Shown here: positions 37,982-63,259 of the stretch, piece by piece
Numbering within the stretch: position 1 is the stretch's first letter
Layout of the letters: every line of letters starts with the position of its first letter
Translations under genes and position numbers: made by a program
NCBI RefSeq assembly: GCF_030811115.1
Contig: NZ_JAUSQK010000001.1
Coordinates: 496,001-560,000, forward strand
Direction of reading: 5' to 3'
Length of the DNA: 64,000 bases
Origin: Olsenella profusa DSM 13989
GTDB taxonomy: Bacteria; Actinomycetota; Coriobacteriia; Coriobacteriales; Atopobiaceae
The notes under the pieces: model-generated
Databases searched by the model: none
What the model was told of the DNA's origin: nothing
Seen by the model: the letters and a program-made list of their open reading frames with translations, nothing else

Positions 37982-38788
37982 CTACCCCCTGAGCCGTCCC
38001 GAGAAGTGCAGAAGCGCCTCCAGCACGCCACCGCCGATGGCACGCGCCTTGTCGGAACAGGAGTGACAGTGATCCGGCCTGCAACGCGGGTCGATGTCAC
38101 CCACCTTCATGCCACAGGTGACGGGCACGCCCTCCTGCAGGAGCCCCCGCAGCACCCCACCAATCGTCGCGGGCAGCGGCGCTCCCGCCACCGAGGCAAT
38201 GACATCCCCCCTGCGCACGACATCGCCAATGTGGGCGACGGGCTTGAGGGTGCCATCCACGGGAGCCCGGAGCACACGCTCGACCGTATACCCGCCTATG
38301 TCGCCTGGCACACCCGAGTTGGGGATGGGCGACCCGTCGTAGATGACGCGACCAAGGTGATGGCCACGTTTGGTCTCGACGGCGGCATGGCAGTCCGCAT
38401 CGGGGCCCTCACCCGCAAGGAAGCCGGGACCCACCCCAATGACAATGGGCGCCATCTCCTTGCTGGTCCCCAGGTTGCGCTTGGCAATGATGGCATCCAC
38501 CACGACGTCGGGCGCAAGGCGGGCGATGCTCTCCCCCTCGGGGTCGACGAGCACGGCGACGATGCCCTGGGCGGCAATCGTGCGCGCCTCCTCGACGCAT
38601 ATGCAGAGCCTGCCGCAAACGTCCTCCACATGCGTCTCGCCCAGTCGGATGGCCTCGCAGAAGCTCACCGTGCGACGCACGGCCGTGGGAAGGGCCATAT
38701 CGAGCATGATGACGTCACATTCCGCCCTCTGCAGCCGTAGTGCTATGCCCGAGGCAAGGTCCCCCGCTCCCCTGATGACAGCCAGCAT
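37982..38788 (-). CDS. yqeB: YqeB/EF2563 family selenium-dependent molybdenum hydroxylase system protein
   Basis: A protein of 268 residues beginning AVIRGAGDLASGIALRL, a Rossmann-like opening, with GVGPGFLAGEGPDADCHA near residue 140, VERVLRAPVDG near 190, and a Cys/His-rich DPRCRPDHCHSCSDKARAIGG near the end. The family is found only with selenium-dependent molybdenum hydroxylases; its reaction is not established. ATG 38788 has GGGGAGGG upstream. It is divergent from yqeC across a 141-bp region. Confidence 0.88.
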   Translation of the reverse strand: MLAVIRGAGDLASGIALRLQRAECDVIMLDMALPTAVRRTVSFCEAIRLGETHVEDVCGRLCICVEEARTIAAQGIVAVLVDPEGESIARLAPDVVVDAIIAKRNLGTSKEMAPIVIGVGPGFLAGEGPDADCHAAVETKRGHHLGRVIYDGSPIPNSGVPGDIGGYTVERVLRAPVDGTLKPVAHIGDVVRRGDVIASVAGAPLPATIGGVLRGLLQEGVPVTCGMKVGDIDPRCRPDHCHSCSDKARAIGGGVLEALLHFSGRLRG

Positions 38789-38901
38789 GTCGAATCCCTC
38801 CCCACCAATCGAACGCATTCTTGCTACAGTCTTCATGCAGTCTCGTATGGCGCCGTACCGGCGTCATATTTTCTGAAACATAACGACGGACACGCGTGCA
38901 C

Positions 38902-38929
38902 TATACAAGACTTTTAGTAAGGCTACCTA
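38902..38929 (+). promoter_or_regulatory. Possible yqeC promoter with ACTTTTAGTA motif
   Basis: TATACA at 38902 is a possible -10 box. It is followed by ACTTTTAGTA at 38910, which also occurs on the minus strand before ygeY (near 45685). The sharing may be regulatory or chance. Confidence 0.3.
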
Positions 38930-39655
38930 ATGAAATTACATGAAATGCTGCAAGTGGTGCCTGGCATTACGTCTGTGGTCGGTAGCGGTGGCAAGACTGC
39001 GCTCTTGGACGCCCTCGCACGCGAGCTGCCGGGGACGGTCATCCTTGCCACATCAACTCACATCCTGCCCTTTGCGGGCATGCCGCTTCTTACGCACCCC
39101 TCCGAGCGCGACGTCCGCGACGCCCTCAAGCGCTCCCGGTGCGCCTGTGTGGGGACGCCCACGGAGTCCGGCAGGCTCACCGCACCATGTCTGGACTTTG
39201 GCACGCTTGCGCGCTGTGCAACCTACGTGCTCGTGGAGGCGGACGGGTCGCACAGGCTGCCCCTCAAGGCGCATGCGGACTGGGAGCCCGTCTGCCCACC
39301 CGATACGGGACGCACGGTTCTCGTCGTCGGCATCTCGGGGCTCGGACGTCCCCTTGACGAGGTCGTGCATCGCCACGAGCTGCTGTGCGGACGCCTCGCG
39401 GTTCCGCAGGATGCCATCGCCACCCCGGCGCTCGTCGCCCAAGGCATCGCCTGGGAGCTGGAGCATGGCATCATGCGGCCAGACGTCCTGTTGCTCAACC
39501 AGTGCGACACGCCGCGGGACCACGCGCTGGCGTCCCAGCTTGCACGCGAGCTCACAGCGCTCCTGAAAGACAGGAGCATGCCCGTATGTACGACCTGCCT
39601 CCCTGCCAGAGGCGCCAGACGTGACAGGGGACGCCAAACGCCCCCTATCTCTTGA
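38930..39655 (+). CDS. yqeC: YqeC-type selenium-dependent hydroxylase accessory protein
   Basis: A protein of 241 residues. VVGSGGKTALLDALA near residue 17 is a P-loop-like motif and LVEADGSHRLPLKAH near 100 is typical of YqeC. In known systems yqeC accompanies yqeB and is thought to help put selenium into the labile Mo cofactor. It is the only cluster gene on the plus strand and converges on the hydantoinase gene with an 11-bp overlap. AAGG lies 8 bp before the ATG. Confidence 0.85.
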   Translation: MKLHEMLQVVPGITSVVGSGGKTALLDALARELPGTVILATSTHILPFAGMPLLTHPSERDVRDALKRSRCACVGTPTESGRLTAPCLDFGTLARCATYVLVEADGSHRLPLKAHADWEPVCPPDTGRTVLVVGISGLGRPLDEVVHRHELLCGRLAVPQDAIATPALVAQGIAWELEHGIMRPDVLLLNQCDTPRDHALASQLARELTALLKDRSMPVCTTCLPARGARRDRGRQTPPIS

Positions 39656-41036
39656 CGTAGGTACCGGGCACGGAGCCCGTGGGCTCGCCATCCCGGGCAA
39701 CGAGTACGCCGTTCACATACACTAGGTGAGCCCTACCCCTGCACCTGACGCCCTCATAGGGCGTGTGGTCCACGTTCTGGTGTTGGGTCTTCGCACCGAT
39801 GACCCACTCCTGACACGGATCCCATACGCAGACATCGGCATCGGAGCCCACGGCAAGGATGCCCTTCCGCGGAAACATGCCGAACACGCGCGCCTGGTTC
39901 TCGGACAGGAGCCTCAGGAGCTCGCGAGGGCCAAGCTCGTCCGCAAAGCTCGTGGCGATAAGCCCAGGGCGATGCTCCACGCCAGGGATGCCGTTGGGGA
40001 TCCTGCGAAAGTCATCCCTGCCACGATCCTTCTGCCCGCACAGGTTAAAGGAGCAGTGGTCGGTGGATATGGTGTCAATCTCGCCCGCAGCTATGGCTGC
40101 GCGCAGCGTCGCACGATCCGCTGGCTTGCGCAGTGGGGGACTCATGACGTACTTGGCCCCACCAAAGTCCGGCTCCAGATAGCGCGTCTCATCCAGCAGC
40201 AGGTACTGCGGACAGGTCTCCACGTAGATGTTCCTTTGGCCCCGCCGCCTTGCTGACCGGATGACCTCAAGCCCCAGCCTCGTGGAGAGGTGCACCACGT
40301 TCACACGGGCATCTCCCGCAAGGTGGGCCAGCATGAGCAGGCGTCCGATGGCCTCGGCCTCACAGACATCCGGCCTGCTCATGGGATGTCCTTCGGGGCC
40401 ATGGACGCCCGCATCGAACACGCGTCTCTGCAGGGCATCCACCAGCGTCCCGTTCTCGCAATGCACGCAGAGCGTAGCGCCCAGAGGGGCGAGTCCCTCA
40501 AGCACCTCGAGCGTCTGGGCGTCATCCAGGCGCAGGTGATCGTAGGCAAGGTACGTCTTGAAGGAGCTCACGCCCGCCTCGCGGATGCCGGGAAGGTCGT
40601 CTTTGGTCCGTTCGTTCCAGTCTGCAACGGCCATGTGGAAGGCATAGTTGGTCGTACAGGTGCCATCGGCGCGCCTGTGCCACTCCTCCAGCGCCTGGGG
40701 CATGGTCATGCCCTTGTCCTGCGTGGCATAGTCCACGATGGTGGTAGTGCCACCGCAGGCGGCGGCGCGCGTACCCGTCTCAAAGCTGTCGGCCGTCCAG
40801 TCCATGCCCGTCCAGGCCTGCATGTGGGTGTGCGCATCGATGAGGCCGGGGAACACCCAGCAGCCGCTCACATCCTGGCAGCTCATGCCCGCGAGCGCCC
40901 CCTCGGGCACACCACCGGGAGCGACGGCGGCAATCCTGTCACCCTCCAGGATGAGGTCACCCATGGCCAGCCCATCCGGCAGCACAAGGGTGCCTCCGCG
41001 TATCACGGTCCGTGCACCTGTCCCCATGTCACTCAT
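39645..41036 (-). CDS. hydA: Dihydropyrimidinase/hydantoinase family amidohydrolase
   Basis: A protein of 463 residues with the D-hydantoinase metal site: GLIDAHTHMQ near residue 66, SSFKTYLAYD near 155 with the carbamylated lysine, CVHCEN near 188, VVHLST near 245 and ISTDHCSF near 315. It opens hydantoin or dihydropyrimidine rings to carbamoyl amino acids. In purinolytic clusters the homologue is YgeZ/HyuA and is thought to open an intermediate of purine breakdown. It overlaps the upstream MocA-like gene by 8 bp (coupled translation). Confidence 0.9.
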   Translation of the reverse strand: MSDMGTGARTVIRGGTLVLPDGLAMGDLILEGDRIAAVAPGGVPEGALAGMSCQDVSGCWVFPGLIDAHTHMQAWTGMDWTADSFETGTRAAACGGTTTIVDYATQDKGMTMPQALEEWHRRADGTCTTNYAFHMAVADWNERTKDDLPGIREAGVSSFKTYLAYDHLRLDDAQTLEVLEGLAPLGATLCVHCENGTLVDALQRRVFDAGVHGPEGHPMSRPDVCEAEAIGRLLMLAHLAGDARVNVVHLSTRLGLEVIRSARRRGQRNIYVETCPQYLLLDETRYLEPDFGGAKYVMSPPLRKPADRATLRAAIAAGEIDTISTDHCSFNLCGQKDRGRDDFRRIPNGIPGVEHRPGLIATSFADELGPRELLRLLSENQARVFGMFPRKGILAVGSDADVCVWDPCQEWVIGAKTQHQNVDHTPYEGVRCRGRAHLVYVNGVLVARDGEPTGSVPGTYVKR

Positions 41037-42006
41037 CCCCTTGAAGTCGACTGCCCGTGCCCGAGCCACAAGCTGCATCCCCTCCGCACACGGCATCAAC
41101 GCGCGCAAGGCCCTCTGGTGTGTCTATGTCCCATAGCTCCTCGGGGCTCGCCGCCTCAACGGTGCGCACCAGATGGCAGAGGACGGGGTTCTCTCTCAGG
41201 AGCGCAAGGCCCCCGCAGTCCCCCGAAAGTGCGGAGAGGGCGGGAGACAGCCACCCAGGAAAGAGCACGGGACTTCCCGCCTCCCCCTGCCAGGACAGGC
41301 GGATGATGGCATCGGGATGGTGGGCATGCTCGTCAAGCATGCGGGCAACGCTCTGGCGCGCAAGCAGTGGTTGGTCGCCCACCACAAAGAGGTAGCCCGT
41401 CCGCCTCCCCAGTGCCCGCATGCCCTCGCGCACCGTGTCGCTCTGGAACGCGCCCCCGTGTATGACGCACCACGCGCCGCGGCCTCCGCACAGAGCGACG
41501 ACCGCTCGCGAACGCGTGACCACGACCGTCTCGAGACGCGCATCGGCAAGGGCATCGAGCGTATGCTCGAGCATGGGCTTGCCTCCGAGCGGTTCCAGGA
41601 GCTTCTGCCTGCCAAAGCGTCGGGCCTGTCCCGAGGCCATGACCACGCAGCCCAGGCGTGGCGTCTCGTCCAAGCCCGCAAAGGCGATGCCCTTAAGACG
41701 TGCCCCCTCGGCAGCGACGGCATCGCTCCACAGATGGTAACGGGCAAGAAGGGCCTCCCCCGCCTCCGTGAGCGTCGAGCTGCCCCCCGCCTCGCCTCCC
41801 GTTCGGCGCACGAGCAGGGGCGTGGCCGCGCCCGCCTCCGCACGCCTGAGGATGTGCAGTGCCTTGGTATAGCTCATACCCAGGAACCGGGCTGCGGCGG
41901 CAAGGCTGCCCTCAGTGTGCACGGCAGCAAGAAGCCGGTAGGGGCCGGGCCCAAAGGCACGGTTCCCTTGCGAATCCATGAGGTATGCGACCGTTCGCGG
42001 CGTCAC
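41029..42006 (-). CDS. mocA: Fusion of a ModE-like HTH domain with a MocA-type nucleotidyltransferase
   Basis: A protein of 325 residues. Residues 1-105 are a LysR/ModE-like winged helix (GSLAAAARFLGMSYTKALHIL, then LTEAGEALLARY). From about 118 a MobA/MocA nucleotidyltransferase begins, with CVVMASGQARRFG, KLLEPLGGKPMLEHTL, FVVGDQPLL and GSPVLFP. MocA adds CMP to molybdopterin to make the cytosine dinucleotide used by xanthine-dehydrogenase-type enzymes. The HTH half could sense cofactor or control the cluster. Joining a DNA-binding half to a cofactor enzyme is unusual. It sits between carbamate kinase and hydantoinase. Confidence 0.85.
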   Translation of the reverse strand: MTPRTVAYLMDSQGNRAFGPGPYRLLAAVHTEGSLAAAARFLGMSYTKALHILRRAEAGAATPLLVRRTGGEAGGSSTLTEAGEALLARYHLWSDAVAAEGARLKGIAFAGLDETPRLGCVVMASGQARRFGRQKLLEPLGGKPMLEHTLDALADARLETVVVTRSRAVVALCGGRGAWCVIHGGAFQSDTVREGMRALGRRTGYLFVVGDQPLLARQSVARMLDEHAHHPDAIIRLSWQGEAGSPVLFPGWLSPALSALSGDCGGLALLRENPVLCHLVRTVEAASPEELWDIDTPEGLARVDAVCGGDAACGSGTGSRLQGDE

Positions 42007-42052: not shown

Positions 42053-42991
42053 CTATCCGTGCACCCTCGTCCCGGTCTTTCCCGCCATGCCGTCTGCGGC
42101 ACGGCTCAACTCGGTTATGAGGGCAGACCTCCCGGCGCCGGAGCACGCGAACTCGAGTGCCGCCTGCACCTTGGGGAGCATGGAGCCGGGAGCAAACTCC
42201 CCGTCATCAATATAGCGCCGAGCCTCCTCGGGTCCCAGCTCGTCAAGCCACTGCTCATCGGGCATGCCAAAGTGAATCGCAACCTTCTCCACCGCCGTGA
42301 GGATGACGAGCGCCTGGGCATCCATCTGCTCGGCAAGGCGCGCCGCCACAAAATCCTTGTCGATGACCGCGGCGGCACCCTTGAGGTGATGTCCCTCCGT
42401 GCGATACACGGGAACGCCTCCTCCACCACAGGCAATGGCCACATGATCGGCCGCAACCAACGAGCGGATGGTATCAAGCTCCACGATGGAGCGTGGAAGG
42501 GGTGATGCCACCACACGGCGATATCCACGCCCCGCATCCTCCGTCACGTGGTAGCCACGCTCCTCCACCATACGCTCGGCCTCCTCCTCTGTCATGAAGG
42601 GGCCAATGGGCTTTGTGGGGTTTTGGAAGGCGGGGTCATCGCGATCGACCTCAACCTGACTCAGCACCGTCGTCACGCCATGGTCGATGCCACGGTCCTC
42701 GAACTCCTCGCGGATGGCATTCTGCAGATCATAGCCTATGTATCCTTGGCTCATGGCAACGCACACAGAGAGCGGGCACGGAATGTAGCGCTTGGGGTCA
42801 AAACGCGTGAGCTGCGTCATGGCCTCCTGGATCATGCCCACCTGCGGACCGTTGCCATGCACGACGACGACCTCATTGCCCGCCTGCACAAGGTCGGCGA
42901 TGGCCTTGGCGGTGCCCCGCACCGCCTCCATCTGCTCGGGAAGATTGTCGCCCAGGGCGTTGCCGCCCAAGGCGACCACGACTCTTCGTCC
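42053..42991 (-). CDS. arcC: Carbamate kinase
   Basis: A protein of 312 residues with the carbamate kinase pattern: VVALGGNAL at the start, VHGNGPQVG near residue 48, MSQGYIGYDLQNAI near 80, ACGGGGVPVY near 205, and IDKDFVAARLA near 226. It converts carbamoyl phosphate and ADP to ATP, bicarbonate and ammonia. With ygeW directly upstream (8 bp apart) it provides substrate-level ATP from carbamoyl groups released in purine breakdown. E. coli has the equivalent yqeA in its own cluster. Confidence 0.93.
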   Translation of the reverse strand, partial: GRRVVVALGGNALGDNLPEQMEAVRGTAKAIADLVQAGNEVVVVHGNGPQVGMIQEAMTQLTRFDPKRYIPCPLSVCVAMSQGYIGYDLQNAIREEFEDRGIDHGVTTVLSQVEVDRDDPAFQNPTKPIGPFMTEEEAERMVEERGYHVTEDAGRGYRRVVASPLPRSIVELDTIRSLVAADHVAIACGGGGVPVYRTEGHHLKGAAAVIDKDFVAARLAEQMDAQALVILTAVEKVAIHFGMPDEQWLDELGPEEARRYIDDGEFAPGSMLPKVQAALEFACSGAGRSALITELSRAADGMAGKTGTRVHG

Positions 42992-42999
42992 CATGATGC

Positions 43000-44202
43000 C
43001 TACGCCCTCGCCCAACGGCTGCGGCCGCGCTGCTCGAGCTCCTTGAGCATGGCAACGGGGTCCTTTGCCTTCTGCAGGAAGATCATTGCTGCCACGGCGT
43101 ACGGCTTGTAGCTGGCCTCCTTGTACAGGCCATCGCGGTGGACGTCAAAGACCTCGCTCACAACCTCGCCATGCTCGCAGGAGACGCCCTCGATGTCGGC
43201 CGGCAGCGGGTGCATGTAGATGGTGTCCATGCCCTTTGCGGTCTTGGACATGAGCTCGGACGTGCAGTGCCAATCCATGTGCGTGGCGTTCTGGGCGAGA
43301 AGCTCCTTCTCCAGGACGTCGATGCCCTCGGAGTCACCGGCAGCATAGAGCTTGGTGCGCTTCTCCATGGCCGCGTAGGGAGCCCAGCTCTTGGGAACCA
43401 CGATGTCGGCGCCCTCGAAGGCCTCCTCCATGGAGTGGGCCTGGGTGAACGTGGCACCAGACTCCTTGGCGTAGGCGCCAGCCTGCTTGACCAGCTCGGG
43501 CATGAGGTCGTAGCCCTCGGGGTGTGCCAGGGTGACGTTCATGCCAAAGCGGGTGAGCAGCATGATGAGCGACTGCGGGCAGGAGAGGGGCTTGCCGTAT
43601 GAGGGGCTATAGGCCCAGGTGACGGCAACCTTCTTGTCCTTGAGGTTGTCGAGCCCACCAAACTCGTTGATGAGATAGAGCAGGTCGGCCGAGGACTGCG
43701 TGGGGTGGTCGGAGTCGGACTGCAGCGAGACGAGCGTGGGACGGTGATCGAGGATGCCGTCGGCGTAGGACTGCGCCACGGACTCGGAGACCTCCTTCAT
43801 GTACGCGTCGCCCTCGCCGATGAACTTGTCGTCGCGGATGCCGATGACATCGGCCATGAAGCTGATCATCGTGGCGGTCTCGCGCACGGTCTCACCGTGA
43901 GCGATCTGCGACTTGGACTCGTCGAGGTCCTGGAGCTGAAGGCCCAGCATGTTGGTGCCCGAGGCAAACGAGAAGCGCGTGCGCGTGGAGTTGTCGCGGA
44001 AGTTGGAGACCGCAAGGCCCGAGTCGAAGATGCGCGTGGAGACGTTGCGCTCGCGCAGGTTGCGCAGGGCATCGGCGACCAGGTAGAGCGCACGAAGCTC
44101 GTTGGTGGTCTTGTCCCAGGTGTGCAGGAAGTCATTGTTGTACATCTTGGAATGGTCGAGCTCCTCGAGCTGGCCGAGGTAGTTCCGGAACGTGGAGTCC
44201 AT
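43000..44202 (-). CDS. ygeW: YgeW-type carbamoyltransferase
   Basis: A protein of 400 residues in the aspartate/ornithine carbamoyltransferase family. NFRDNSTRTRFSFASG near residue 73 is the carbamoyl-phosphate loop (STRTR), SDHPTQSSADLL near 172 is the HPTQ motif, and MHPLPADIEG near 345 is the HPLP-like motif. YgeW is the diverged group found in purinolytic clusters. It probably transfers carbamoyl from an intermediate (2,3-diaminopropionate-linked in current models) to phosphate. AAGGGG precedes ATG 44202. Confidence 0.92.
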   Translation of the reverse strand: MDSTFRNYLGQLEELDHSKMYNNDFLHTWDKTTNELRALYLVADALRNLRERNVSTRIFDSGLAVSNFRDNSTRTRFSFASGTNMLGLQLQDLDESKSQIAHGETVRETATMISFMADVIGIRDDKFIGEGDAYMKEVSESVAQSYADGILDHRPTLVSLQSDSDHPTQSSADLLYLINEFGGLDNLKDKKVAVTWAYSPSYGKPLSCPQSLIMLLTRFGMNVTLAHPEGYDLMPELVKQAGAYAKESGATFTQAHSMEEAFEGADIVVPKSWAPYAAMEKRTKLYAAGDSEGIDVLEKELLAQNATHMDWHCTSELMSKTAKGMDTIYMHPLPADIEGVSCEHGEVVSEVFDVHRDGLYKEASYKPYAVAAMIFLQKAKDPVAMLKELEQRGRSRWARA

Positions 44203-44277
44203 TCGTTTCCCCTTCTTTGGATGCGAGCGAGGTGGCCTTCCCAGTGACCGCACGGTCTGTGTTTCTGAGGTGCCTGC

Positions 44278-45660: not shown

Positions 45661-45899
45661 TGGGTCCTCCTCAAGACGTCCCATACTAAAAGTATTAATA
45701 CAAACTTTTTGTTTGGTATATGCATCATGCGCCTTACGCAGGGCAGATTCAAGCGTTACAGGAGAACTCCCTGGCATTGCCCTGAGCGGCTCGCCTTGCG
45801 CCCCGAACGGCAGGTCCCTAACGGCAGGGCGGCATGTAGGGTCCGGCAGCGCCCGCCTTGGGCCTTGCAAGGGGCACGCCACACAGACCGCATGGGGAT
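45661..45899 (-). promoter_or_regulatory. ygeY promoter region with two palindromes
   Basis: An unusually AT-rich patch (45683-45720) lies just upstream of ygeY in a GC-rich cluster. It contains ATACT-AAA-AGTAT (45683-45695) and CAAAC-TTTTT-GTTTG (45701-45715). These are candidate operators overlapping a promoter. The remaining 45721-45899 stretch, downstream of the permease gene, shows no gene. Confidence 0.5.
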
Positions 45900-47282
45900 C
45901 TACTTCGCACCCAGCTCCTCCTCTTCCCTGACATCTGCACCACGCTCACCGTTGGGGTCTGGCAGTACGAGGTTGAGAGTGATGGCCACGAGCGTGGTGA
46001 CGACGATGGCAGATCCGCCAAAGATGCTCGTGACCCAAGGGGGCATGTCGGCACCTCCTAGCGACCCCTTGACCATGGAGATGCCCATGCCCAGAGCGAC
46101 GGACAGGCCAGCAATGCTCGCACGACGGTCGGTAAGCCCACCCTTCGTGAGAATCCTGATGCCCGTCATGGTGATGGTGCCAAAGACGGAGATCGTTGCG
46201 CCGCCAATGACGCACATGGGGATAGTGTCCAGCAGGGCGGCGAACTTGGGAATGAGGCCACATGCGATGAGGATGCCCGCCGCGCAGGCGAAGACGCGCC
46301 TGTTGACGACCTTGGTCACCGTGGCGATGCCGACGTTCTGGGCGAACGTGGCCGTGGGCAGACCACCAAACAGGGCGCCTATCGTTGAGGCAATGCCCTC
46401 ACAGAGGATGCCGCCGCGAATCTCCCCCAGCCTTGCCTCGCGACCAAGCGCACCGTTGGCAACGGCAGAGAAGTCGCCGATCATCTCGACGGCGGCAATG
46501 ATGAACACTGCGCCGAGGGAGACCAGGGCATCCGGCTGAAACTCGATGCCAAAGGGAAGGACCTTGGGCAGCGCTACCCAGGAGGCGTCTCCTAGGCCAC
46601 CAAAGTTCACCATGCCGAGGGCAAACGACAGCGCATAGCCTACGAGCATGCCAAACAGCAGGGAGCCAAGCCTGAGCACACCCTTGCCAAAATTGCCGAA
46701 GATGATGCAGCACACCAGCGTGACCAGGGCGACAACCCAGTTTTGGGCGCTACCGAAGTCGGGGCTGCCCGTTCCTCCTGCCATGTAGCCAACAGCCACG
46801 GAGTAGAGCGACAGCCCGATGCAAAAGACCACCGTGCCCGTGACCACGGGTGGGAAGAGACGCTTGATCTGTCTGAGGAACACGCCAAACAGTATGGCCA
46901 CAAAGCCACCCATAAACTGGGCCCCAATGATGGCGGCAATGCCATACGTGCCACCAATGGTGTTAAGCACAGGAACGAACGCGAAGGAGGCTCCCGTAAT
47001 GACAGGCAGTCCCGAGCCAATGCGGCCAAAGACGGGATGCGCCTGCAGCAGCGTCACGATGCCCGAAAACAGCATGGCGGACTGAATGAGCAGCGTACGT
47101 TCATCCGCCGGCAGGCTGCACGCGGAGCCAACGATGATGGCCGGTGTAATGATGCCCACAATGGCGGCGATAACATGCTGCAACGCGAGGGGGACGAAGA
47201 GCCTCGCCGGTGGCTTGCCATCTTGCCAAAACAGCTGACCGGTAGCATCGTCGGCCACCTTCCGCATCTTCTTTTCACTCAT
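45900..47282 (-). CDS. NCS2 family xanthine/urate permease
   Basis: A protein of 460 residues with about fourteen membrane helices. [20 protein letters not shown] near residue 32 and the NCS2 signature [12 protein letters not shown] near 315 place it with XanQ, UacT and UraA symporters. Position between ygeX and ygeY suggests that it imports the purine (urate or xanthine) degraded by the cluster. Charged ends are cytoplasmic. Substrate choice among xanthine, urate and uracil is inferred from context. Confidence 0.9.
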
Positions 47283-47407: not shown

Positions 47408-48622
47408 CTACTCACTTGCGTAGGCCCCGTCCCACACAACCTCGCGGTAGCGGACAGGGTCGGTGTCGCCCTCCGTGGAGAACAGCAGCACCTGGGACCT
47501 GAGGCCCAACCCGAGCTCCTCACGCAGCTCGACGTAGGCATCATCCTGCATGATGGTGGCGATCATACCCATGCCCACGGCACCAGACTCGCCCGACGTG
47601 ATGGCAGGATCCCCTTTGACGGGCGCGGCAAGCATGCGCATACCCTTGGCAGACGACCAGTCTGGGCAGGAGAGAAACGCGGAGACGTGGTTACGCAGAA
47701 TGTCCCAACTGATCGTGTTGGGCTCGCCGCAGGCAAGGCCGGCCATGATGGTGCTGAGGTCTCCTCCCACGGTGCGTGGCTTGCCATCGGCGGCCCGTGC
47801 ACCCTGATAGAGGCAGTCTGCCGCACTTGCCTCCATGGTCACGAATGTGGGAGGGTCATCCGGGAAGAGGTTCGTGAAGTAGCCGACGACGGAGCCCGCG
47901 AGCGACCCCACGCCCGCCTGCACGAACACGTGGGTGGGACGATTGACCCCAAGCTGCCTCAGCTGTTCGGCCGCCTCACTGGACATGGTGCCATACCCCT
48001 GCATGATCCAAGACGGAATCCTCTCGTATCCGTCCCAGGCGGTGTCCTGCACGACGACACCATGCTCCGTCTCGCCCGCCTCCTGTGCGACGAGGCGCAC
48101 GCAGTCGTCGTAGTTGAGCTCCTCGATTGTAACCTCGGCGCCCTCCTTGGCGATGTTGTCGAAACGTGCCCTTGTCGATCCTCTGGGCATGCGCACCACT
48201 GCCCTCTGACCCAGCCTATGCGCCGCCCATGCCACCCCACGGCCATGGTTGCCATCCGTTGCCGTAAAGAAGGTGGCACGACCAAAGTCCTGTGCCAGCT
48301 GGCCGGACGTCAGGTAGCCGAAGTCACATTCGCCTATGTCCCTGCCCGTCTCGTCAGCGATGTAGCGTGCCATAGCAAACGAGCCACCCAGCACCTTAAA
48401 GGCATTGAGGCCAAAGCGGTAGCTCTCGTCCTTCACATAGAGCCCACCCAATCCCAGGTGCTCCGCCATGCCCGTCAATCTCGCCAGAGGCGTCTCTGAG
48501 TACTGCGGGAAGCTCCTGTGGAAGCGCTGAGCCTCTCTTACGCTGCCCAAGTCCATGATGGCAAGTCTCGTGTCCCCACTGCCGGGCATCCTGTTCATGG
48601 CCCATTCCATGCGTGGTCTCAT
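47408..48622 (-). CDS. ygeX: Diaminopropionate ammonia-lyase YgeX
   Basis: A PLP enzyme of 404 residues of the fold type II group: LNAFKVLGGSFAM near residue 67 has the Schiff-base lysine, TATDGNHGRGVAW near 112 is the phosphate or substrate loop, and QAGVGSLAGSVVGYF near 215 the glycine-rich loop. It cleaves 2,3-diaminopropionate to pyruvate and two ammonia, the carbon exit of the pathway. AAAGGATG precedes ATG 48622; the frame further upstream (to 49063) lies inside the previous gene. Confidence 0.93.
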   Translation of the reverse strand: MRPRMEWAMNRMPGSGDTRLAIMDLGSVREAQRFHRSFPQYSETPLARLTGMAEHLGLGGLYVKDESYRFGLNAFKVLGGSFAMARYIADETGRDIGECDFGYLTSGQLAQDFGRATFFTATDGNHGRGVAWAAHRLGQRAVVRMPRGSTRARFDNIAKEGAEVTIEELNYDDCVRLVAQEAGETEHGVVVQDTAWDGYERIPSWIMQGYGTMSSEAAEQLRQLGVNRPTHVFVQAGVGSLAGSVVGYFTNLFPDDPPTFVTMEASAADCLYQGARAADGKPRTVGGDLSTIMAGLACGEPNTISWDILRNHVSAFLSCPDWSSAKGMRMLAAPVKGDPAITSGESGAVGMGMIATIMQDDAYVELREELGLGLRSQVLLFSTEGDTDPVRYREVVWDGAYASE

Positions 48623-48776
48623 GTCTACATCCTTTCCTGCCAGGCACTTGTGGCCTTGCGATTGGTGCCTACAGAGCACTCTGCCTTGCATCCCCTGAAG
48701 CGGGGCATAATCCGTTCGTACAGGCACACGCATGAGACGGTCGCACGTTGCCTGCATATGCCTGCCACCACGCCAT

Positions 48777-51560
48777 CTATGACACCGCCCTGCGGGACCT
48801 CTTTGCGTAGGGCGTATCGCGCAGGGGCAGCTCGGTGCGCAGCCGGCCATCAAGGCGCCTGTAGGCGTTCTGTAGTGCGCCGGCAGTGGGAATCGAGGAG
48901 ATCTCTCCAATGCCCTTGCCACCGTATGCCACAGGCAGCAGGTGCTCCCCCTCCACATAGATGGCATGGATGTTGGGGATCTGCGTGGCCCGAAGCAGTC
49001 CCAACGTGCCAAAGCGCACCTTGGGGACACAGTCCTTGAGCACGAAGTCCTCCGTGAGCGCATAGCCCATGCTCATGAGCACGCCGCCCTCGATCTGGCC
49101 TTGGATGGCGGTGGGGTTTACCACCTTGCCGGAGTCATGCGCCGCATACACGTCGCTCACCTTGCCATCCTCATCGAGCACGGCAACCGTGGTGGCATAG
49201 GCATAGCAGATGTGGCTCTTGGGATTGGGCTTGTCGGCCCCCAGCCTATCCGTGGGCTCAAAGTACTCGTAGAAGAACTCACGGCCCTCGAGGGCGGCAA
49301 GGTCCTCCACGGGACGCATGGGATGGTGCCCCCTGCCGGCAATGAGCTCATCGGGGTCGGCCGACACGGGTGTACCATCCTCAAGCGTCGCCCTGATGCC
49401 ATTCCCCTTCGCACGCAGGGGCGTCACGGGAAGTGTCCCGTCCCGCTCGTAGGCAAGCATGGCGTCACGCAGCAGGAAGGCTGCCCCACGCACGGACTCC
49501 CCCGTAATGACGGTCTGTCGCGAGCCCGAGGTCGTCCCCGAGTCTGGAGCATACTCCGTGGAGCACTCGCCATTCTCAATGAGGGATCTGGGCAGTCCCA
49601 CGGCCTCCGCGACGTCCTGCAGGAAGATGGTGTTGCAGCCTTGTCCGACGTCGGACGTGGCCGAATAGATCACCACATGGCCGTGTTCGACCCGAAGCGT
49701 ACAGCGTCCGGCGTCGGGCAGGCCAACGCCCACGCCCGCGTTCTTCATGGCGCAGGAGATACCGCACCTGTCAGCGTTCCGCTCATAGGCGTCCTTCACC
49801 GCCATGAGGGTCTCCTTGAGGGCCGTCGACTCATCGGCAAGCTGACCGTTGGGCAGGGCGTCACCCGGCTCGATCGCATTGCGATAACGCATCTCCCAGG
49901 TGCTGATGCCCACCTCGTCCGCAAGCAGGTCCATGAGGCACTCGAGGGCAAACTCGCTCTGACATACGCCAAAGCCCCTGAACGCACCGGCAGGCGGGTT
50001 GTTGGTATAGTAGCCAAAGCCCCTGATGTCCGTGTTCTGATACTTGTAGGGGCCTACGGCATGGGTGCAGGCGCGCTCCAACACGGGGCCGCACAGCGAG
50101 GCATAGGCACCGGTATCAAAGTTGATTTCGCAATCTAGGCCAGTGAGAATGCCATCCTCGTCGCAGCCAAGCGTAAATGTGGCCTCCATGGCATGGCGCT
50201 TGGGGTGGAAGTTGATGGATTCCTGACGGCTCAGCTTACACTTGATGGTGCAGCCAAAGCGCAGGGCCGCTAGGGCGGCCACGTGCTGCACCGTGACGTC
50301 CTCCTTACCTCCGAAGCCGCCGCCCACCAGCGCGGTCTCGACCACCACACGCTCTGGGGTGTCATCCCAGCCCAACATGTGGGCAACCTCCTTGCGCGTG
50401 TCGTAGGCCCCCTGGTCGGAGCTGATGATTTTGACGCCGTCCTCGTAGGGGAAGGCTATGGCGCACTCGGGCTCCAGGAAGGCGTGCTCCGTGAAGGGCG
50501 TCTTGAACGATTTGGTCACGACGTGAGCGGAGTGTGCCAGCGCCACCTTCGCATCCCCGCGTGTCACATGACGACTCTGACACACGTTATCGTGCAATTG
50601 CACGATCTTGCCAAAGGCAAGGAAGCTGTCGTGGATGAGCGGTGCCCCCTGAGCCTTGGCCTCTGCGATGCCTCGCACGGGCTCGAGGGGCTCATACGCT
50701 ACCTTCACAAGCCTCTTAGCCCGCTCAAGCGTCCCCTCATCCTTGGCGACCACGAGACAGATGGCGTCGCCCACACAGCGCGTGATGTCTCCCTCGGCAA
50801 TGAAGACGTCCCAGTCCTGGATAAGGTGCCCCACCTGGTTGACGGGAACGTCCTTGGCCGTGAGCACGCCCACGACGCCGGGAAGCTCCTCGGCCTCACT
50901 CACATCGACGGACAGGACACGAGCGCGAGGATATGTGGATCGAACGGCCGAGGCGTGACACATGTCCGGAAAGTCGAGCTCGTTGTAATCATCAGGATAC
51001 TTGCCCGTGCCCAACACCTTGCAGCGCACATCCGCCCGAAAGGCCCGCTTGCCCACACCATAGTCGTCACCACGCTCGAGGGACCCGTCAATGGCCTCCT
51101 CGCCACGCAGGATCCTAGCGGCCAGCAAGATGCCCTCGATGATCTTCTTGTAACCGGTGCAGCGACAGATGTTTCCCTTGATGGCCTGCTTGACCTCGTC
51201 CTCGGTGGGGCTGGGGTTCCTGCGCAAGAGGGCCGACCCGCTCATGACCATTCCCGGGGTGCAGAACCCGCACTGTACGGCACCCACCGTGCCGAAGGCA
51301 TAGACAAAGGCCTCCCGCTCGTCGTGCGTGAGCCCCTCGACGGTAAGGACTTCGCATCCCTGAAGCTGCTTGGTGGAGATGACGCAGCCCCTCTTGGCGA
51401 CGCCATCTATGGCAACGGTACAGGTTCCACACGCCCCCTCGCTGCACCCGTCCTTCACGGATGTCAGGTGCAGGTCATCACGCAGGAAGCGCAGGAGTCG
51501 CTTGTTCTTTTGAGTCGACACCTTCGTGCCGTTGACGGTGAACGTGTAAGTCTCTGCCAT
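48777..51560 (-). CDS. xdhD: Xanthine-dehydrogenase-like molybdenum hydroxylase (XdhD type)
   Basis: A protein of 927 residues joining two 2Fe-2S domains to a molybdenum domain. Residues 1-160 have CSEGACGTCTVAIDG, CGFCTPGMVMSG and ICRCTGYKKI. From about 170 the Mo-binding part has LVGGGFGGKED near 415, AGAFRGFGVCQSE near 535 and YGGKGIGEISS near 890 with the base glutamate. No FAD domain is fused, and no separate FAD subunit gene (ygfM) lies nearby. It probably hydroxylates or reduces purines such as xanthine or urate. No in-frame TGA is seen, so selenium, if used, is in the cofactor. Confidence 0.92.
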   Translation of the reverse strand: MAETYTFTVNGTKVSTQKNKRLLRFLRDDLHLTSVKDGCSEGACGTCTVAIDGVAKRGCVISTKQLQGCEVLTVEGLTHDEREAFVYAFGTVGAVQCGFCTPGMVMSGSALLRRNPSPTEDEVKQAIKGNICRCTGYKKIIEGILLAARILRGEEAIDGSLERGDDYGVGKRAFRADVRCKVLGTGKYPDDYNELDFPDMCHASAVRSTYPRARVLSVDVSEAEELPGVVGVLTAKDVPVNQVGHLIQDWDVFIAEGDITRCVGDAICLVVAKDEGTLERAKRLVKVAYEPLEPVRGIAEAKAQGAPLIHDSFLAFGKIVQLHDNVCQSRHVTRGDAKVALAHSAHVVTKSFKTPFTEHAFLEPECAIAFPYEDGVKIISSDQGAYDTRKEVAHMLGWDDTPERVVVETALVGGGFGGKEDVTVQHVAALAALRFGCTIKCKLSRQESINFHPKRHAMEATFTLGCDEDGILTGLDCEINFDTGAYASLCGPVLERACTHAVGPYKYQNTDIRGFGYYTNNPPAGAFRGFGVCQSEFALECLMDLLADEVGISTWEMRYRNAIEPGDALPNGQLADESTALKETLMAVKDAYERNADRCGISCAMKNAGVGVGLPDAGRCTLRVEHGHVVIYSATSDVGQGCNTIFLQDVAEAVGLPRSLIENGECSTEYAPDSGTTSGSRQTVITGESVRGAAFLLRDAMLAYERDGTLPVTPLRAKGNGIRATLEDGTPVSADPDELIAGRGHHPMRPVEDLAALEGREFFYEYFEPTDRLGADKPNPKSHICYAYATTVAVLDEDGKVSDVYAAHDSGKVVNPTAIQGQIEGGVLMSMGYALTEDFVLKDCVPKVRFGTLGLLRATQIPNIHAIYVEGEHLLPVAYGGKGIGEISSIPTAGALQNAYRRLDGRLRTELPLRDTPYAKRSRRAVS

Positions 51561-51640
51561 GTTCCCATCCTCTTCTCTCGGTGTCACAGCCACCATGCGG
51601 CCGCCCTTCCCATGTCTGCGGGAGGCTCGCACGGCATGCA

Positions 51641-54631
51641 TCAGCTAAGTAGGTACGAATAGGTGTTCCGCACTGCGACGATGGTCTTACGGACCGACTC
51701 GGGCAGGCCGCATGAGAGGTCGTCCACATCGAAGGTGCCCTCATCGGCATCCACTCGCACGAGCATACCGCCCTCGGCAGGCAGGAAGCCCTCATTGGTG
51801 GAGTCGTCGAAGTCCTCGCGGCTCCAGAAGAGCGTGAGCTTGTCCTTGTACGGGCGACCCTCGGAGTACGGGCAGAACACGGCACAGTTGCCGCACTCGT
51901 TGCACATGCCATCCACGTGGACAATCTGGCGCTCGCGCATGCCGGGTACGCGGACGGCCACGTTGGCACGGTTGGGGCAGACCTCGCAGCAGGTCTCGCA
52001 CACGGTTACGCAGCCAAGGCAGCGCGTGTGGGCAAGCGACTGGACGTCGGCCTCGAGGCTGCCACGCGACACAAGCGACGACTCGTAGCTGAGGTCAACG
52101 TTGGACTCCCCCATGCCATCAAAGGAGGCGCCGGAGATGGCACGCGTGACGGTCATGGCATCGGCGATGGCCTTGACCACGGTAGCGGGGCCGCGGCGCG
52201 CATCGCCTACGGCAAAGACGTGCGGCACGCTGGTCTCGAGGGAGTCGCTCACCACGGGGCGGCCCTTCCCGTCAAGATCGCAGCCCGTTGCCAGGTAAAG
52301 CCCCTGCTCGATACGCTCGCCAACGGCGGTGATGACCGCGGTGGCGGGCACGCTCACGGTCTCGCCCGTAGGCTCGGGGGCGCGACGACCAGAGGCGTCC
52401 GGCGCGCCAAGGCGCATGACCTCGCAGGTCAGCACGCCGTTGGCAAGGTCGCCGGGCGAGAGGAGCTCCATGAGCTCCACGCCGTCCTCGAGTGCCATGA
52501 CGAGCTCTTCCTCGTCGGCGGGCATGTAGCGGCGGGTACGGCGATAGACCAGGCGCAGGTGCTCGACGCCGGGCACGCGCTTGGCGGCACGCGCCACGTC
52601 CATGGCCGTGTTGCCACCGCCAATGACCACGACGTCGGTGCCAAGCCGGCATTGCGCAGGATCGTCCCTGAAGTCACGGAGGAAGTCGATGGCGTCGAGC
52701 GCCTCGCCGCTGCGGAGCGCCGGACGGCCTGACGCCCAAGCTCCAATGGCCACCACGACATCGCTAAACCCCTGGTCGAGAAGGTCGCGCGCGTTGGTGA
52801 CCTCGACACCCGTCTTGAACGTGGCGCCATAGGCCGAGCAGAGCTCCACGTCGTGGTCGATGGCCTCGTCAGAGATGCGGAAGCCCGGGATCGCATGGCG
52901 CACAATGCCACCGAGCTCACCGGTGCGCTCGAACACGATGACGTCGGCGCCCGCGCGCGAGAGGAACGATGCCGCGGCAAGGCCGGCGGGACCAGCGCCC
53001 ACAACGGCAACCTTGCGGTCGGTCACGGTGCCACGCGGGGAGAGGGTGGGAAGCACCTCGGCCAGGCCCTTCTCGGCAGCCAGGAGCTTGAACTCGCGGA
53101 TGTGCACGTGCTCCTCGTAGTAGTTGCGCATGCAGGAGTCGCCGCAGGTATGCGGGCAGATGGTGCCCGTCGTGAAGGGCAGGGCGTTGCGCTCGAGGAT
53201 GATGCGGAGGGCGTCGGCATAGCGGCCCTCCCCACAGGCGCGCAGGTAGCCCGGGATGTCCTGCTCGATGGGGCAATCCTCGCGGCAGGGTGCCGTGAAG
53301 CAGTCGATGAGCGGCAGGTCGTGGCCCACGTGGCGCTCGGGCATGGGCTTGACGGGCTTACGGTAGCGGGGATTGGTGAGGGCGTCGTCCACGATGGCGG
53401 AAACCTTGGCGAGGTCAACGCGCGAGAACGGGGCGTCATCGATGCCGGAGAGAGACTCGTCAACCTGGACCAGGCGCTGGTAGCCACCCGGCTTGAGCAG
53501 CGTTGTCGCCATGGTGACCGGCCAGATGCCGGCGTCGACGAGCGCGCGGACGTTCAGCGCGTCCGCGCCGCCGGAGAAGGAGATGCGCAGGTGGCCCTCG
53601 AACTCGTCGGCGATGCGCTTGGCAAGCGAGATGGTGAGCGGGTAGAGCGAGCGGCCGGACATGTACATCTCGTCGCTGGGAAGCTCAAAGCGGGTGACGT
53701 CAACGGGGAAGGTGTTGGTGAGCTTGACGCCAAACTCCACGCCGCACTCGGCTGCCAGGGCGATAAGGCGCCGGAGCATGGGTACGGCATCTGCCCATTG
53801 CAGATCCTCGTTGAAGTGGTGCTCGTCGAAGACGATGTAATCGAAGCCCAGCGAGTCCAGGGTCTTGCGGGCATACTCGTAGCCCAGAAGCGTGGGGTTG
53901 CACTTGATGTAGGTGTTCAGGCCCTTCTCGGCGATGAGGTGCGTCGCGATGCGCTCGATCTCTGCGGGCGGGCAACCGTGAAGCGTGGACTCGGTAACCG
54001 AGCGGGACACATGCGGCGAGATGGAGTCGACAAAGGCGGCGTCAACGTTCTGGAAGCGATCGAGGTTGGCCTTGGCCCAGGCAATGGCCTCCTGGAAGAC
54101 GGGGGTGTCTGAGGCATTCTTCATGCTGTCGATGTAGGTGTCGACCTTCTCGCCCTTGATGCCCTCAAGGTCGTAGCCAACCGACATGTTGAAGACAAAG
54201 CCATCCGGGCCGCCCAAGTCGAACTCGCGCGCGAGGAGCTTGCAGGCAACCCAGGCCTTGACGTACTCATCAAAGGCATCGGGTACGGTGAGCTCGGTGG
54301 ACCACTCGCAGTTGTAGCCCTCATCGGCTGCGAGGATGCAGGGCTTGTTCACGCAGGCGGAAAGTTCGGCACCATCCATCTTCTGGATGGTCTTGAGCTC
54401 GAAGAAGCGGGCACCGGTAACGTAGGAGGCGATGATGTTCTGGGCAAGCTGGGTGTTGGGGCCCGCCGCCGGCCCAACGGGCGACTCGACCCTCTCGCCA
54501 AAGATGGGACGGGCATGACCGCCGAGCTTGGCAAGGCGAGACTCGCCAAAGACGGTTCCCTGGGCCTTCTTCTCGGTTAGGATCCAGTCCATGAGCTGGT
54601 CGAACGGAATGGGGCGCATGATGTCGCTCAT
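51641..54631 (-). CDS. ygfK: YgfK flavoprotein oxidoreductase (annotated as putative selenate reductase)
   Basis: A protein of 996 residues. The N-terminal part (about 1-420) is a dihydroorotate-dehydrogenase-like barrel (SPVGPAAGPNTQLAQN, IKCNPTLLGYEYA). A Fe-S helical domain follows (CREDCPIEQDIPGYL, CPHTCGDSC), then GltD-like FAD (VVGAGPAGLAAA) and NADPH (VIGGGNTAMDVA) domains, and two ferredoxin clusters (CETCCEVCPN, CNECGNCAVFCPYSEG). These are the parts of dihydropyrimidine dehydrogenase in another order. It may exchange electrons between NAD(P)H and the Mo hydroxylase, or reduce a purine ring itself. ATG 54631 has GAGAGG upstream. Confidence 0.92.
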   Translation of the reverse strand: MSDIMRPIPFDQLMDWILTEKKAQGTVFGESRLAKLGGHARPIFGERVESPVGPAAGPNTQLAQNIIASYVTGARFFELKTIQKMDGAELSACVNKPCILAADEGYNCEWSTELTVPDAFDEYVKAWVACKLLAREFDLGGPDGFVFNMSVGYDLEGIKGEKVDTYIDSMKNASDTPVFQEAIAWAKANLDRFQNVDAAFVDSISPHVSRSVTESTLHGCPPAEIERIATHLIAEKGLNTYIKCNPTLLGYEYARKTLDSLGFDYIVFDEHHFNEDLQWADAVPMLRRLIALAAECGVEFGVKLTNTFPVDVTRFELPSDEMYMSGRSLYPLTISLAKRIADEFEGHLRISFSGGADALNVRALVDAGIWPVTMATTLLKPGGYQRLVQVDESLSGIDDAPFSRVDLAKVSAIVDDALTNPRYRKPVKPMPERHVGHDLPLIDCFTAPCREDCPIEQDIPGYLRACGEGRYADALRIILERNALPFTTGTICPHTCGDSCMRNYYEEHVHIREFKLLAAEKGLAEVLPTLSPRGTVTDRKVAVVGAGPAGLAAASFLSRAGADVIVFERTGELGGIVRHAIPGFRISDEAIDHDVELCSAYGATFKTGVEVTNARDLLDQGFSDVVVAIGAWASGRPALRSGEALDAIDFLRDFRDDPAQCRLGTDVVVIGGGNTAMDVARAAKRVPGVEHLRLVYRRTRRYMPADEEELVMALEDGVELMELLSPGDLANGVLTCEVMRLGAPDASGRRAPEPTGETVSVPATAVITAVGERIEQGLYLATGCDLDGKGRPVVSDSLETSVPHVFAVGDARRGPATVVKAIADAMTVTRAISGASFDGMGESNVDLSYESSLVSRGSLEADVQSLAHTRCLGCVTVCETCCEVCPNRANVAVRVPGMRERQIVHVDGMCNECGNCAVFCPYSEGRPYKDKLTLFWSREDFDDSTNEGFLPAEGGMLVRVDADEGTFDVDDLSCGLPESVRKTIVAVRNTYSYLLS

Positions 54632-54745: not shown

Positions 54746-56101
54746 CTAGTACTCGCAGCCGTTAAGCTCTCCCCAGAGCCTCTTTGCCTGGTCGAGCACG
54801 AAGGCGTCGATCCTTTCCTTGTCAATGTCTGTGAACGTATGGTCGCGGTAGACCACGCGGCCATTCGCGATGGTAGTACGGCAGTCGTGTCCCTCGACGC
54901 CAAAGAGGATGTGGCCATCGATGTTCTCCGCACCGATGGGCGTAGGCGCGGGGTAGTCGAACACGGCAACGTCCGCCGCGGCACCGGGCGCAAGCACGCC
55001 TAGGGGCTTGCCCTGCGGCTTGGTTGCAAAGTACACGTTCGCGGCCTCGGCATTGTTCTTGAAGAGCATGGTCATGGCCTCACCCCAGGCCACGTTGGGC
55101 AGCGCGGAGTTGAGGCGCTGCAGCGGCACGAAGGCCTTGAGGGACTGAAGCATGTCGTGGGTGTAGGCATCGGTTCCCATGGTCACGGTGATGCCGCGCT
55201 TGAAGAACTCGAGCACCGGCGCGGTGCCCACGGCGTTGTTGGCATTGGACTGCGGGTTGTTGACGATCTTGGTATGGGTCTCGGCACATACGTCCATGTC
55301 GGCCGGGGTGATGTGGATGCAGTGGCCGAGCATGGTCCTCTCGCCCAGGATGCCATGGTCAAGGAGACGGTGGATCGAGGTGCAGCCGTGCCTCTGGGCG
55401 GAGTCATAGACGTCATCCATGCCCTCGCACACGTGGATGTGGAAGCCGGTGAGGCCGTTGTTGGCCTCTGCCATACGGTCGAGCGTCTCGTCCGACAGTG
55501 TGAAGAGGGCGTGCCCGCCGAACATGGCGGCAATCATGTCAGAGTCCTGGTTGGCAGCCCAGCGGGCAAAGTCGGCGTTCTCTTGGATGGACTCGGCGAG
55601 CTTCTCCTTGCCATCACGGTCTGAGACCTCGTAGCACAGGCAGGCACGCATGCCCATCTCCTGCGCGACGTCCTTGATGGCAAAGAGGGACCCGGGGATC
55701 TGGCAGAAGCTCGCGTGGTGGTCAAAGATGGTGGTCACGCCATTGCGGAACGACTCCATCATGGTCACGTATGCGCAGGCGCGCGTGCCCTCAAGTGTGA
55801 GGTGGCGATCGATGTTCCACCACTGCTGCTCGAGGTTCTCGAGGAAGTTGGTGGGATTGCACCCCCTGATGGCGAGGCCGCGCGCCAGTCCGGAATAGAT
55901 ATGGGTGTGGCAGTTGATGAGACCGGGCATGATGAGGCCGCCATGGGCGTCAATGAACGCGGCCGTGGGATAGGCGGCGTCCATCTCCGCACGCGTGCCA
56001 ACGGCCACGATCTTGTCGCGGTCGATGACAACGGCACCGTCCTCGACGAAGGGCTTCTCGGGATCCCTGGTTACGACCCGACCGTTTCCAACAAGTAGCA
56101 T
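54746..56101 (-). CDS. ssnA: SsnA-type aminohydrolase
   Basis: An amidohydrolase of 451 residues: GLINCHTHIYSG near residue 60, HHASFCQIPGS near 120, HIHVCEG near 213, GHCIHIT near 252 and MGTDAYTHDM near 300 form the metal site of the guanine deaminase/chlorohydrolase (AtzA/TrzN) group. SsnA is always found with ygfK and Mo hydroxylases, and probably deaminates or opens a purine-derived ring. GGAGGAGAGG precedes ATG 56101. It is the first gene of the long minus-strand operon, divergent from the regulator. Confidence 0.92.
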   Translation of the reverse strand: MLLVGNGRVVTRDPEKPFVEDGAVVIDRDKIVAVGTRAEMDAAYPTAAFIDAHGGLIMPGLINCHTHIYSGLARGLAIRGCNPTNFLENLEQQWWNIDRHLTLEGTRACAYVTMMESFRNGVTTIFDHHASFCQIPGSLFAIKDVAQEMGMRACLCYEVSDRDGKEKLAESIQENADFARWAANQDSDMIAAMFGGHALFTLSDETLDRMAEANNGLTGFHIHVCEGMDDVYDSAQRHGCTSIHRLLDHGILGERTMLGHCIHITPADMDVCAETHTKIVNNPQSNANNAVGTAPVLEFFKRGITVTMGTDAYTHDMLQSLKAFVPLQRLNSALPNVAWGEAMTMLFKNNAEAANVYFATKPQGKPLGVLAPGAAADVAVFDYPAPTPIGAENIDGHILFGVEGHDCRTTIANGRVVYRDHTFTDIDKERIDAFVLDQAKRLWGELNGCEY

Positions 56102-60504: not shown

Positions 60505-60507
60505 GGC

Positions 60508-63252: not shown

Positions 63253-63259
63253 GGCAAGG

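Follow-up and report, generated by a model that had tools for sequence, protein, structure and literature searches.

A ModE-type winged helix fused to a MocA-like enzyme, and predicted operators for it, in a selenium-dependent molybdenum hydroxylase cluster of Olsenella profusa

Results

The fused protein and its two domains

The 64,000-nucleotide stretch of Olsenella profusa DSM 13989 analyzed here (the window; contig NZ_JAUSQK010000001.1, positions 496,001 to 560,000, with coordinates counted from its first letter unless given as genome positions) carries a selenium-dependent molybdenum hydroxylase (SDMH) cluster for purines, and within that cluster sits a gene that joins a ModE-type DNA-binding domain, a winged helix of the helix-turn-helix (HTH) class, to an enzyme of the MocA/YgfJ type. 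The gene and its two domains lie as follows.

41029 to 42006, minus strand: fused ModE-HTH/MocA protein, 325 amino acids (aa), GTG start, one unbroken open reading frame
41713 to 41949, minus strand: ModE-type winged helix, aa 20-98; TIGR00637 at E 2.6e-16 and 59.5 bits; PDB matches 1b9m, 1o7l and 2ijl
41110 to 41652, minus strand: MocA/YgfJ nucleotidyltransferase domain, aa 119-299; TIGR03310 at E 8.2e-33 and 114 bits; PDB matches 3d5n and 2we9

Profile scans also matched the N-terminus to Pfam HTH_1 and the C-terminal half to NTP_transf_3, and together these matches bear out the initial annotation, which had read a ModE-like winged helix in the first third and a MocA enzyme in the rest from the letters alone. 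Both halves score below the curated NCBI cut-offs (ModE 59.5 versus 98.5 bits; MocA 114 versus 186.45 bits), so the domain assignments are homology calls and not formal family names. MocA was nevertheless the best-scoring model for the enzyme half, with TIGR03310 at 114 bits followed by PucB at 57.6 bits and the MobA models at 37.7 and 29.1 bits, and the ModE and MocA models both matched all 17 aligned rows, our own protein included. The motif residues of the MocA domain are invariant across these rows (we take the motifs to be RFG..KL, GDQ, GDxGG and DxDT), among them the Lys of RFGRQKL and the Asp of GDQPL, and the domain probably uses cytidine triphosphate (CTP).

Structure prediction revealed the same architecture, with an AlphaFold2 model built from the 17 rows (mean predicted local distance difference test score 89.8, confident over both domains) showing a winged helix, a long helix (80-107) and a nucleotidyltransferase fold. 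The best 50 of 335 Foldseek rows with E <=0.001 were nucleotidyltransferase folds, such as 3d5n, CMP-KDO synthetase, Rv0371c and MobA, and the HTH half was detected by sequence profile in E. coli ModE (1b9m/1o7l) and in 2ijl. Of 30 fetched loci (two of them from the same species), 29 have a start codon where the first residue aligns, and an identical protein is encoded on contig NZ_AWEZ01000037.1 of strain F0195 of Olsenella profusa. The fusion of a ModE-type winged helix with a MocA/YgfJ enzyme is thus confirmed.

No Mop or di-Mop molybdate-binding domain was found in the fused protein by Pfam and NCBIfam scans at E 0.001, nor was a Mop domain found in the genome (5 of 14 control genomes do match), which agrees with the earlier suggestion that the cofactor-finishing enzyme has taken the place of the usual effector part. 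The only other ModE-HTH match in the genome was a weak one to a LysR-type protein (24.5 bits), and after the fusion the next MocA match scored 41.8 bits, leaving no other clear MocA.

Distribution and origin of the fusion

A survey of the fusion, which the initial annotation had called for, revealed that it is kept end to end (a match from residue <=14 to residue >=291) in 60 of 140 family genomes, and on these grounds we reject an assembly or frameshift artefact. One internal stop occurs in 8 of the 60 matches; in the three examined (L013, L016 and L018) both domains share one open frame. Outside the family, no listed row spanned both domains in one open frame among 396 class genomes (265 matching) and 296 phylum genomes (175 matching), these lists comprising the strongest rows. 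Three further candidate fusions, G331 (37-309, one stop) and G025 and G026 (46-312, four stops), were rejected because their MocA frames hold no HTH, and matches in G662 and G690 span parts of both domains with internal stops. An exact-peptide contig scan with one protein returned the conspecific record and 16 further loci, the latter as partial matches only.

A sister family (f3) has the same gene cluster with MocA alone, and genomes of sister families carry separate ModE-type HTHs located elsewhere. These stand-alone HTHs (L193, L195-L197, L199-L202) lack the GGxGGGS wing loop and have RDGARGSTLT or similar instead, a subtype other than that of the fusion. Of 20 stretches surrounding stand-alone ModE HTHs, 18 yielded none of the window genes searched for. 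A 538-aa open frame in L068 (8568-10181, plus strand) also ends in a MobA/MocA-type domain; its first 340 residues match no Pfam family and may be a long upstream frame.

An unrooted maximum-likelihood tree of 44 MocA domains (23 fused, 21 unfused) needs two changes, which fits a single acquisition of the HTH followed by its loss in G054/G055. Mean pairwise identity across the 17 rows is 0.59 for the HTH, 0.53 for MocA and 0.34 for the linker, the least conserved part. A loss of recognition-helix residues across homologues, a check that the initial annotation had named, did not appear; the HTH is as well conserved as the enzyme or better, and a degenerate HTH was rejected for this reason. The fusion and its conservation are direct readings of the sequences.

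Operator-like sites in the O. profusa genome

In E. coli, ModE acts on genes for molybdate transport and for the cofactor and binds palindromes as a dimer. Its consensus, given as ATCGNTATATA-N6-TATATANCGAT in an excerpted source (PMC545781), was searched as CGNTATAT-N8-ATATANCG, that is CGnTATAT-N8-ATATAnCG with 14 scored positions. At <=2 of 14 mismatches the 2.6-Mb genome holds five sites versus one for the reversed pattern, and two of the five fall in the two divergent intergenic stretches of the cluster; the other three boxes lie outside these stretches.

38862 to 38885, strand not assigned: predicted ModE-type operator in the divergent yqeB/yqeC intergenic stretch; 2/14 mismatches, with 5/5000 dinucleotide shuffles as good
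56414 to 56437, strand not assigned: predicted ModE-type operator in the divergent ssnA/yheO-like intergenic stretch; 2/14 mismatches, with 11/5000 dinucleotide shuffles as good

The first operator is about 45 base pairs (bp) away from where yqeC begins; its distance to the start of yqeB is 26 or 74 bp, according to which ATG opens that gene. The idea that the fused protein adjusts transcription of the cluster through three regions therefore stands in part, as far as sequence can tell: two of the regions hold these sites, and the third, 45661-45899, has none, its best match being 7/14 mismatched with 998/1000 shuffles as good or better. A promoter scan of 56100-56800 gave two sigma-70-like patterns against 0.5 expected.

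Operator-like sites across relatives

The spacing between half-sites was evaluated over 58 stretches (1.14 Mb) from 30 fused genomes, leaving out L072, L073 and L088 as near-identical. This revealed 18 sites with <=2 mismatches at spacing 8 versus 0-2 at each of 14 other spacings, and 27 sites with exactly three mismatches at spacing 8 versus 3-14 at the others (3 of the 27 being duplicates from the overlapping stretches L083/L140, L084/L141 and L081/L138). Twenty unfused stretches (384 kb) gave two sites at spacing 8 with <=3 mismatches (L056 and L058), no excess over other spacings.

Upstream of yqeB and yqeC, a site with <=3/14 mismatches was present in 21 of 49 intervals from fused genomes (16 of 25 genomes) and in 0 of 22 from 11 unfused genomes, with other spacings giving 0-6 of the 49. 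Gene starts for this tally were estimated by alignment to the window genes, which left a usable interval in 25 of 32 fetched fused genomes, and for G000, G041 and G043 a single site is counted for both genes of the divergent pair.

A hand-chosen set of 28 sites gave the consensus CGTTATattTt..aAaatATAACG, from which the refined motif CGTTATANTTNNNNAANTATAACG was searched at <=3 mismatches. It occurs in 54 of 60 fused genomes (112 sites; reversed control 6 genomes, 7 sites), in 8 of 79 other family genomes (9 sites; reversed control 10 genomes, 12 sites) and in none of the 7 family genomes with an unfused MocA, G101 having been dropped from the count as ambiguous (contig edge). All 30 fused genomes outside the spacing test have a refined site, and these are not independent, one being conspecific and many belonging to the genus of a scanned genome. 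Among the 68 listed refined sites in fused genomes (the strongest rows), 47 share a contig with the fused gene, and 44 of these lie no more than 40 kb from it.

In O. profusa itself the refined motif has three sites, all in this island, versus 0 for the reversed control: yqeB/C, ssnA/yheO and genome position 560314, upstream of modA. The first two helped to build the motif and the modA site did not. This weaker site lies just past the window, some 167 bp ahead of the probable start of modA, where the unrefined consensus is matched with 4 mismatches (21/2000 shuffles as good). Presence of the sites and their link to the fusion are, like the fusion, read from the genomes directly, and DNA binding at the yqeB/yqeC and ssnA promoters is a well-supported prediction from them.

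In distant phylum members with a stand-alone ModE HTH (L190 at 3454, L192 at 4257), CGCTATGT-N8-ACATAGCG palindromes stand just 3' of the HTH gene and upstream of a MobA-like gene or modBC-like genes.

The surrounding gene cluster

The fused gene is probably part of a minus-strand run led by ssnA, in the order ssnA, ygfK, selenium-dependent xanthine dehydrogenase, diaminopropionate ammonia-lyase, xanthine-type permease, ygeY, ygeW, arcC, fusion and hyuA, with the stop of the fused gene overlapping the likely ATG of hyuA; yqeB and the divergent yqeC adjoin the run.

37985 to 38836, minus strand: yqeB, predicted target; TIGR03309 at 338.5 bits, above cut-off; the start may be the ATG at 38788
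38930 to 39652, plus strand: yqeC, predicted target; TIGR03172 at 148.2 bits, above cut-off
39648 to 41108, minus strand: hyuA-like dihydropyrimidinase, next gene after the fusion in the run; TIGR02033 above cut-off
42056 to 43015, minus strand: arcC carbamate kinase; TIGR00746 above cut-off
43003 to 44253, minus strand: ygeW carbamoyltransferase; TIGR03316
44281 to 45882, minus strand: ygeY hydrolase; TIGR03526 from aa 81, the true start being probably downstream of the listed GTG
45903 to 47282, minus strand: NCS2 transporter, xanthine-permease-like; TIGR00801 above cut-off
47411 to 49063, minus strand: diaminopropionate ammonia-lyase (ygeX); TIGR03528 from aa 154
48780 to 51641, minus strand: selenium-dependent xanthine dehydrogenase; TIGR03311 at 1127 bits
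51644 to 54745, minus strand: ygfK; TIGR03315
54749 to 56212, minus strand: ssnA, first gene behind the 56414 operator; TIGR03314
56755 to 57402, plus strand: YheO-like PAS_6 and HTH_22 regulator, divergent from ssnA; family match
58475 to 63492 and on to genome position 560147, minus strand: probable molybdate uptake/cofactor operon; families and place

Clusters of this kind are described in parts of Haft and Self 2008 (PMC2276186) and of a paper by Zhang and colleagues (PMC2432076). The SDMH accessory genes yqeB, yqeC and ygfJ/mocA stand here with the selenium-dependent xanthine dehydrogenase, and selD lies elsewhere in the genome. The selD frame (L203 1471-2535, plus strand, genome about 2,024,000) reads through one TGA at AAGUAAK, from which SelD is itself probably a selenoprotein, and it is preceded by a frame that by appearance resembles a cysteine desulfurase.

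Past the YheO-like gene, homologues of which accompany the cluster in some relatives both with and without the fusion, come a MoCF-domain protein, a MoaC-MOSC protein, MoaA, an ABC ATPase, a permease and then, over the window edge, an SBP_bac_11 solute-binding protein. From their families and position the last three are probably modC, modB and modA. In this probable operon, which lies beside the SDMH cluster, MoaC is fused to a MOSC domain.

Discussion

Our observations point to a bifunctional enzyme and transcription factor, with the HTH binding operators of the cluster and occupancy of the MocA active site as the signal, a reading that we hold at a probability of roughly 0.6. The MocA domain would attach a nucleotide, most likely cytidine monophosphate (CMP), to Mo-molybdopterin (Mo-MPT) for the selenium-dependent hydroxylases of the cluster, and the ModE-type HTH would bind, as a dimer, palindromes of the form CGTTATAT-N8-ATATAACG at the promoters of yqeB/yqeC, ssnA and, more weakly, modA. 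The run that the ssnA promoter would start has the fused gene and hyuA at its end, so the feedback loop would include the fusion itself. Repression is the most likely action at the targets, because the yqeB/yqeC operator is close (about 26-74 and 45 bp) to both start codons. In place of the molybdate that Mop domains bind, the signal would be Mo-MPT, CTP or product in the active site, the simplest candidate given that the search turned up no Mop domain; sensing of the cofactor state by the MocA domain, as BirA or NadR would suggest, is plausible by analogy. Dimerization, repression, catalysis, the grouping of the genes into operons and the link between ligand state and DNA binding are all steps that we infer.

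A bolder reading is a molybdenum-cofactor 'trigger enzyme', in which the last enzyme of synthesis reads the supply of Mo-MPT or of the finished cytosine dinucleotide cofactor (MCD) and through its ModE domain sets transcription of yqeB/yqeC, of the selenium-dependent xanthine dehydrogenase operon (itself included) and of molybdate uptake. We put this tentatively, at a little under even odds. If true, molybdate sensing would be replaced by sensing of the finished cofactor, and the regulator would sense the molybdenum cofactor through its completing enzyme, in a genome with no Mop domain found. The sites also provide, in these Coriobacteriia, a predicted operator and regulon for yqeB and yqeC, two selenium-cofactor genes about which little is understood, and for the purine-degrading hydroxylase cluster.

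Several observations weigh against this proposal. No sigma-70 pattern was recognized at 38780-39000 by the promoter scan, so at yqeB/yqeC it is distance that argues for repression as the likely sign. Nine of 25 fused genomes have no yqeB/C site at <=3 mismatches (G046, G051, G053, G057, G077, G079, G114, G118 and G120), G114, G118 and G120 having a four-mismatch site at yqeC, and 6 of 60 have no refined site (G053, G029, G018, G050, G058 and G059), G029, G018 and G050 having a three-mismatch site at yqeC. For the refined motif, 28 of the 45 spacing-test sites were chosen by hand and 17 dropped (3 duplicates and 14 judged not near cluster promoters), and a separate hand tally took in 29 of the 45. 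Over whole genomes the excess with the unrefined 2-mismatch pattern is only modest: 101 sites versus 67 reversed in the 60 fused genomes, with 179 versus 163 reversed in 79 others. The MocA score is below the NCBIfam equivalog cut-off, as it is for all four unfused coriobacterial MocA copies tested (95-123 bits), and the excerpted source for the consensus assigns a different motif to an HTH-only ModE of Desulfovibrio (PMC545781).

The alternative that survives best, unlikely as we consider it, is that the HTH regulates the cluster with MocA as a passenger or dimer scaffold that keeps the two activities in equal dose, DNA binding being independent of cofactor state. Such binding may hold for HTH-only ModE-type proteins, which exist in Desulfovibrio among others (PMC545781, in part), and in Enterococcus faecalis a separate ModE gene and a MobA-related gene both belong to a cluster of this type (PMC2432076, in part); the linker, as the least conserved part, also speaks for this alternative. 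A passenger fits less well with the retention of the fusion by 60 of 140 family genomes, with a single loss on the tree, and with the O. profusa genome, where no Mop domain was found as an alternative molybdate sensor.

It is improbable that the operators serve a different regulator, for instance the YheO-like PAS/HTH_22 protein, with the fused HTH doing something else or nothing. The YheO-like gene (56755-57402) adjoins the ssnA operator and so counts against our proposal as another candidate regulator; however, seven loci of the unfused set keep a YheO-like gene (L049, L054, L055 and L060-L062, L064) and have no site at <=3 mismatches, for which reason we rejected this ownership, and the motif is identical to the consensus for ModE of E. 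coli, both in its letters and in the distance between half-sites. A non-functional remnant of an HTH, on a protein that is just a MocA, is very improbable. Family members with MocA alone do show the HTH to be dispensable, but its residues are as well conserved as those of the enzyme or better, and the operator-like sites track the fusion.

Returning to the bifunctional regulator, each half is of a kind already known, and the combination with a predicted regulon is new. The fusion was not found described in a full-text search of open-licence literature (subscription papers being outside its scope), and excerpts of a domain-fusion survey (PMC6147048) contain no mention of an HTH-MocA fusion. With ModE of the E. 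coli type (PDB 1b9m, 1o7l) it shares the winged-helix family and the predicted operator CGnTATAT-N8-ATATAnCG, the difference being that a MocA enzyme takes the place of the Mop molybdate-binding domains. HTH-only ModE-type proteins (Desulfovibrio; E. faecalis EF2572; 2ijl, 135 aa) likewise have the ModE HTH without Mop, and EF2572 and the MobA-related EF2569 are members of a selenium/molybdenum cluster of this type (PMC2432076, in part), with HTH and MocA being separate proteins there and one protein here. Compared with MocA/YgfJ, the molybdopterin cytidylyltransferase, it has the same fold, conserved motifs and neighbors (selenium-dependent xanthine dehydrogenase, yqeB and yqeC), and differs in its N-terminal DNA-binding domain and in a score below the NCBI equivalog cut-off. 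BirA and NadR are enzymes that double as repressors under ligand control, and NadR pairs an HTH with a nucleotidyltransferase. The likeness lies in a cofactor-pathway enzyme and an HTH in one chain, with operators (predicted here) at pathway genes, whereas the cofactor, HTH family and enzyme differ and the ligand control known for BirA and NadR is proposed for the fusion. If active-site occupancy is the signal, the fused protein would be the molybdenum-cofactor counterpart of BirA or NadR.

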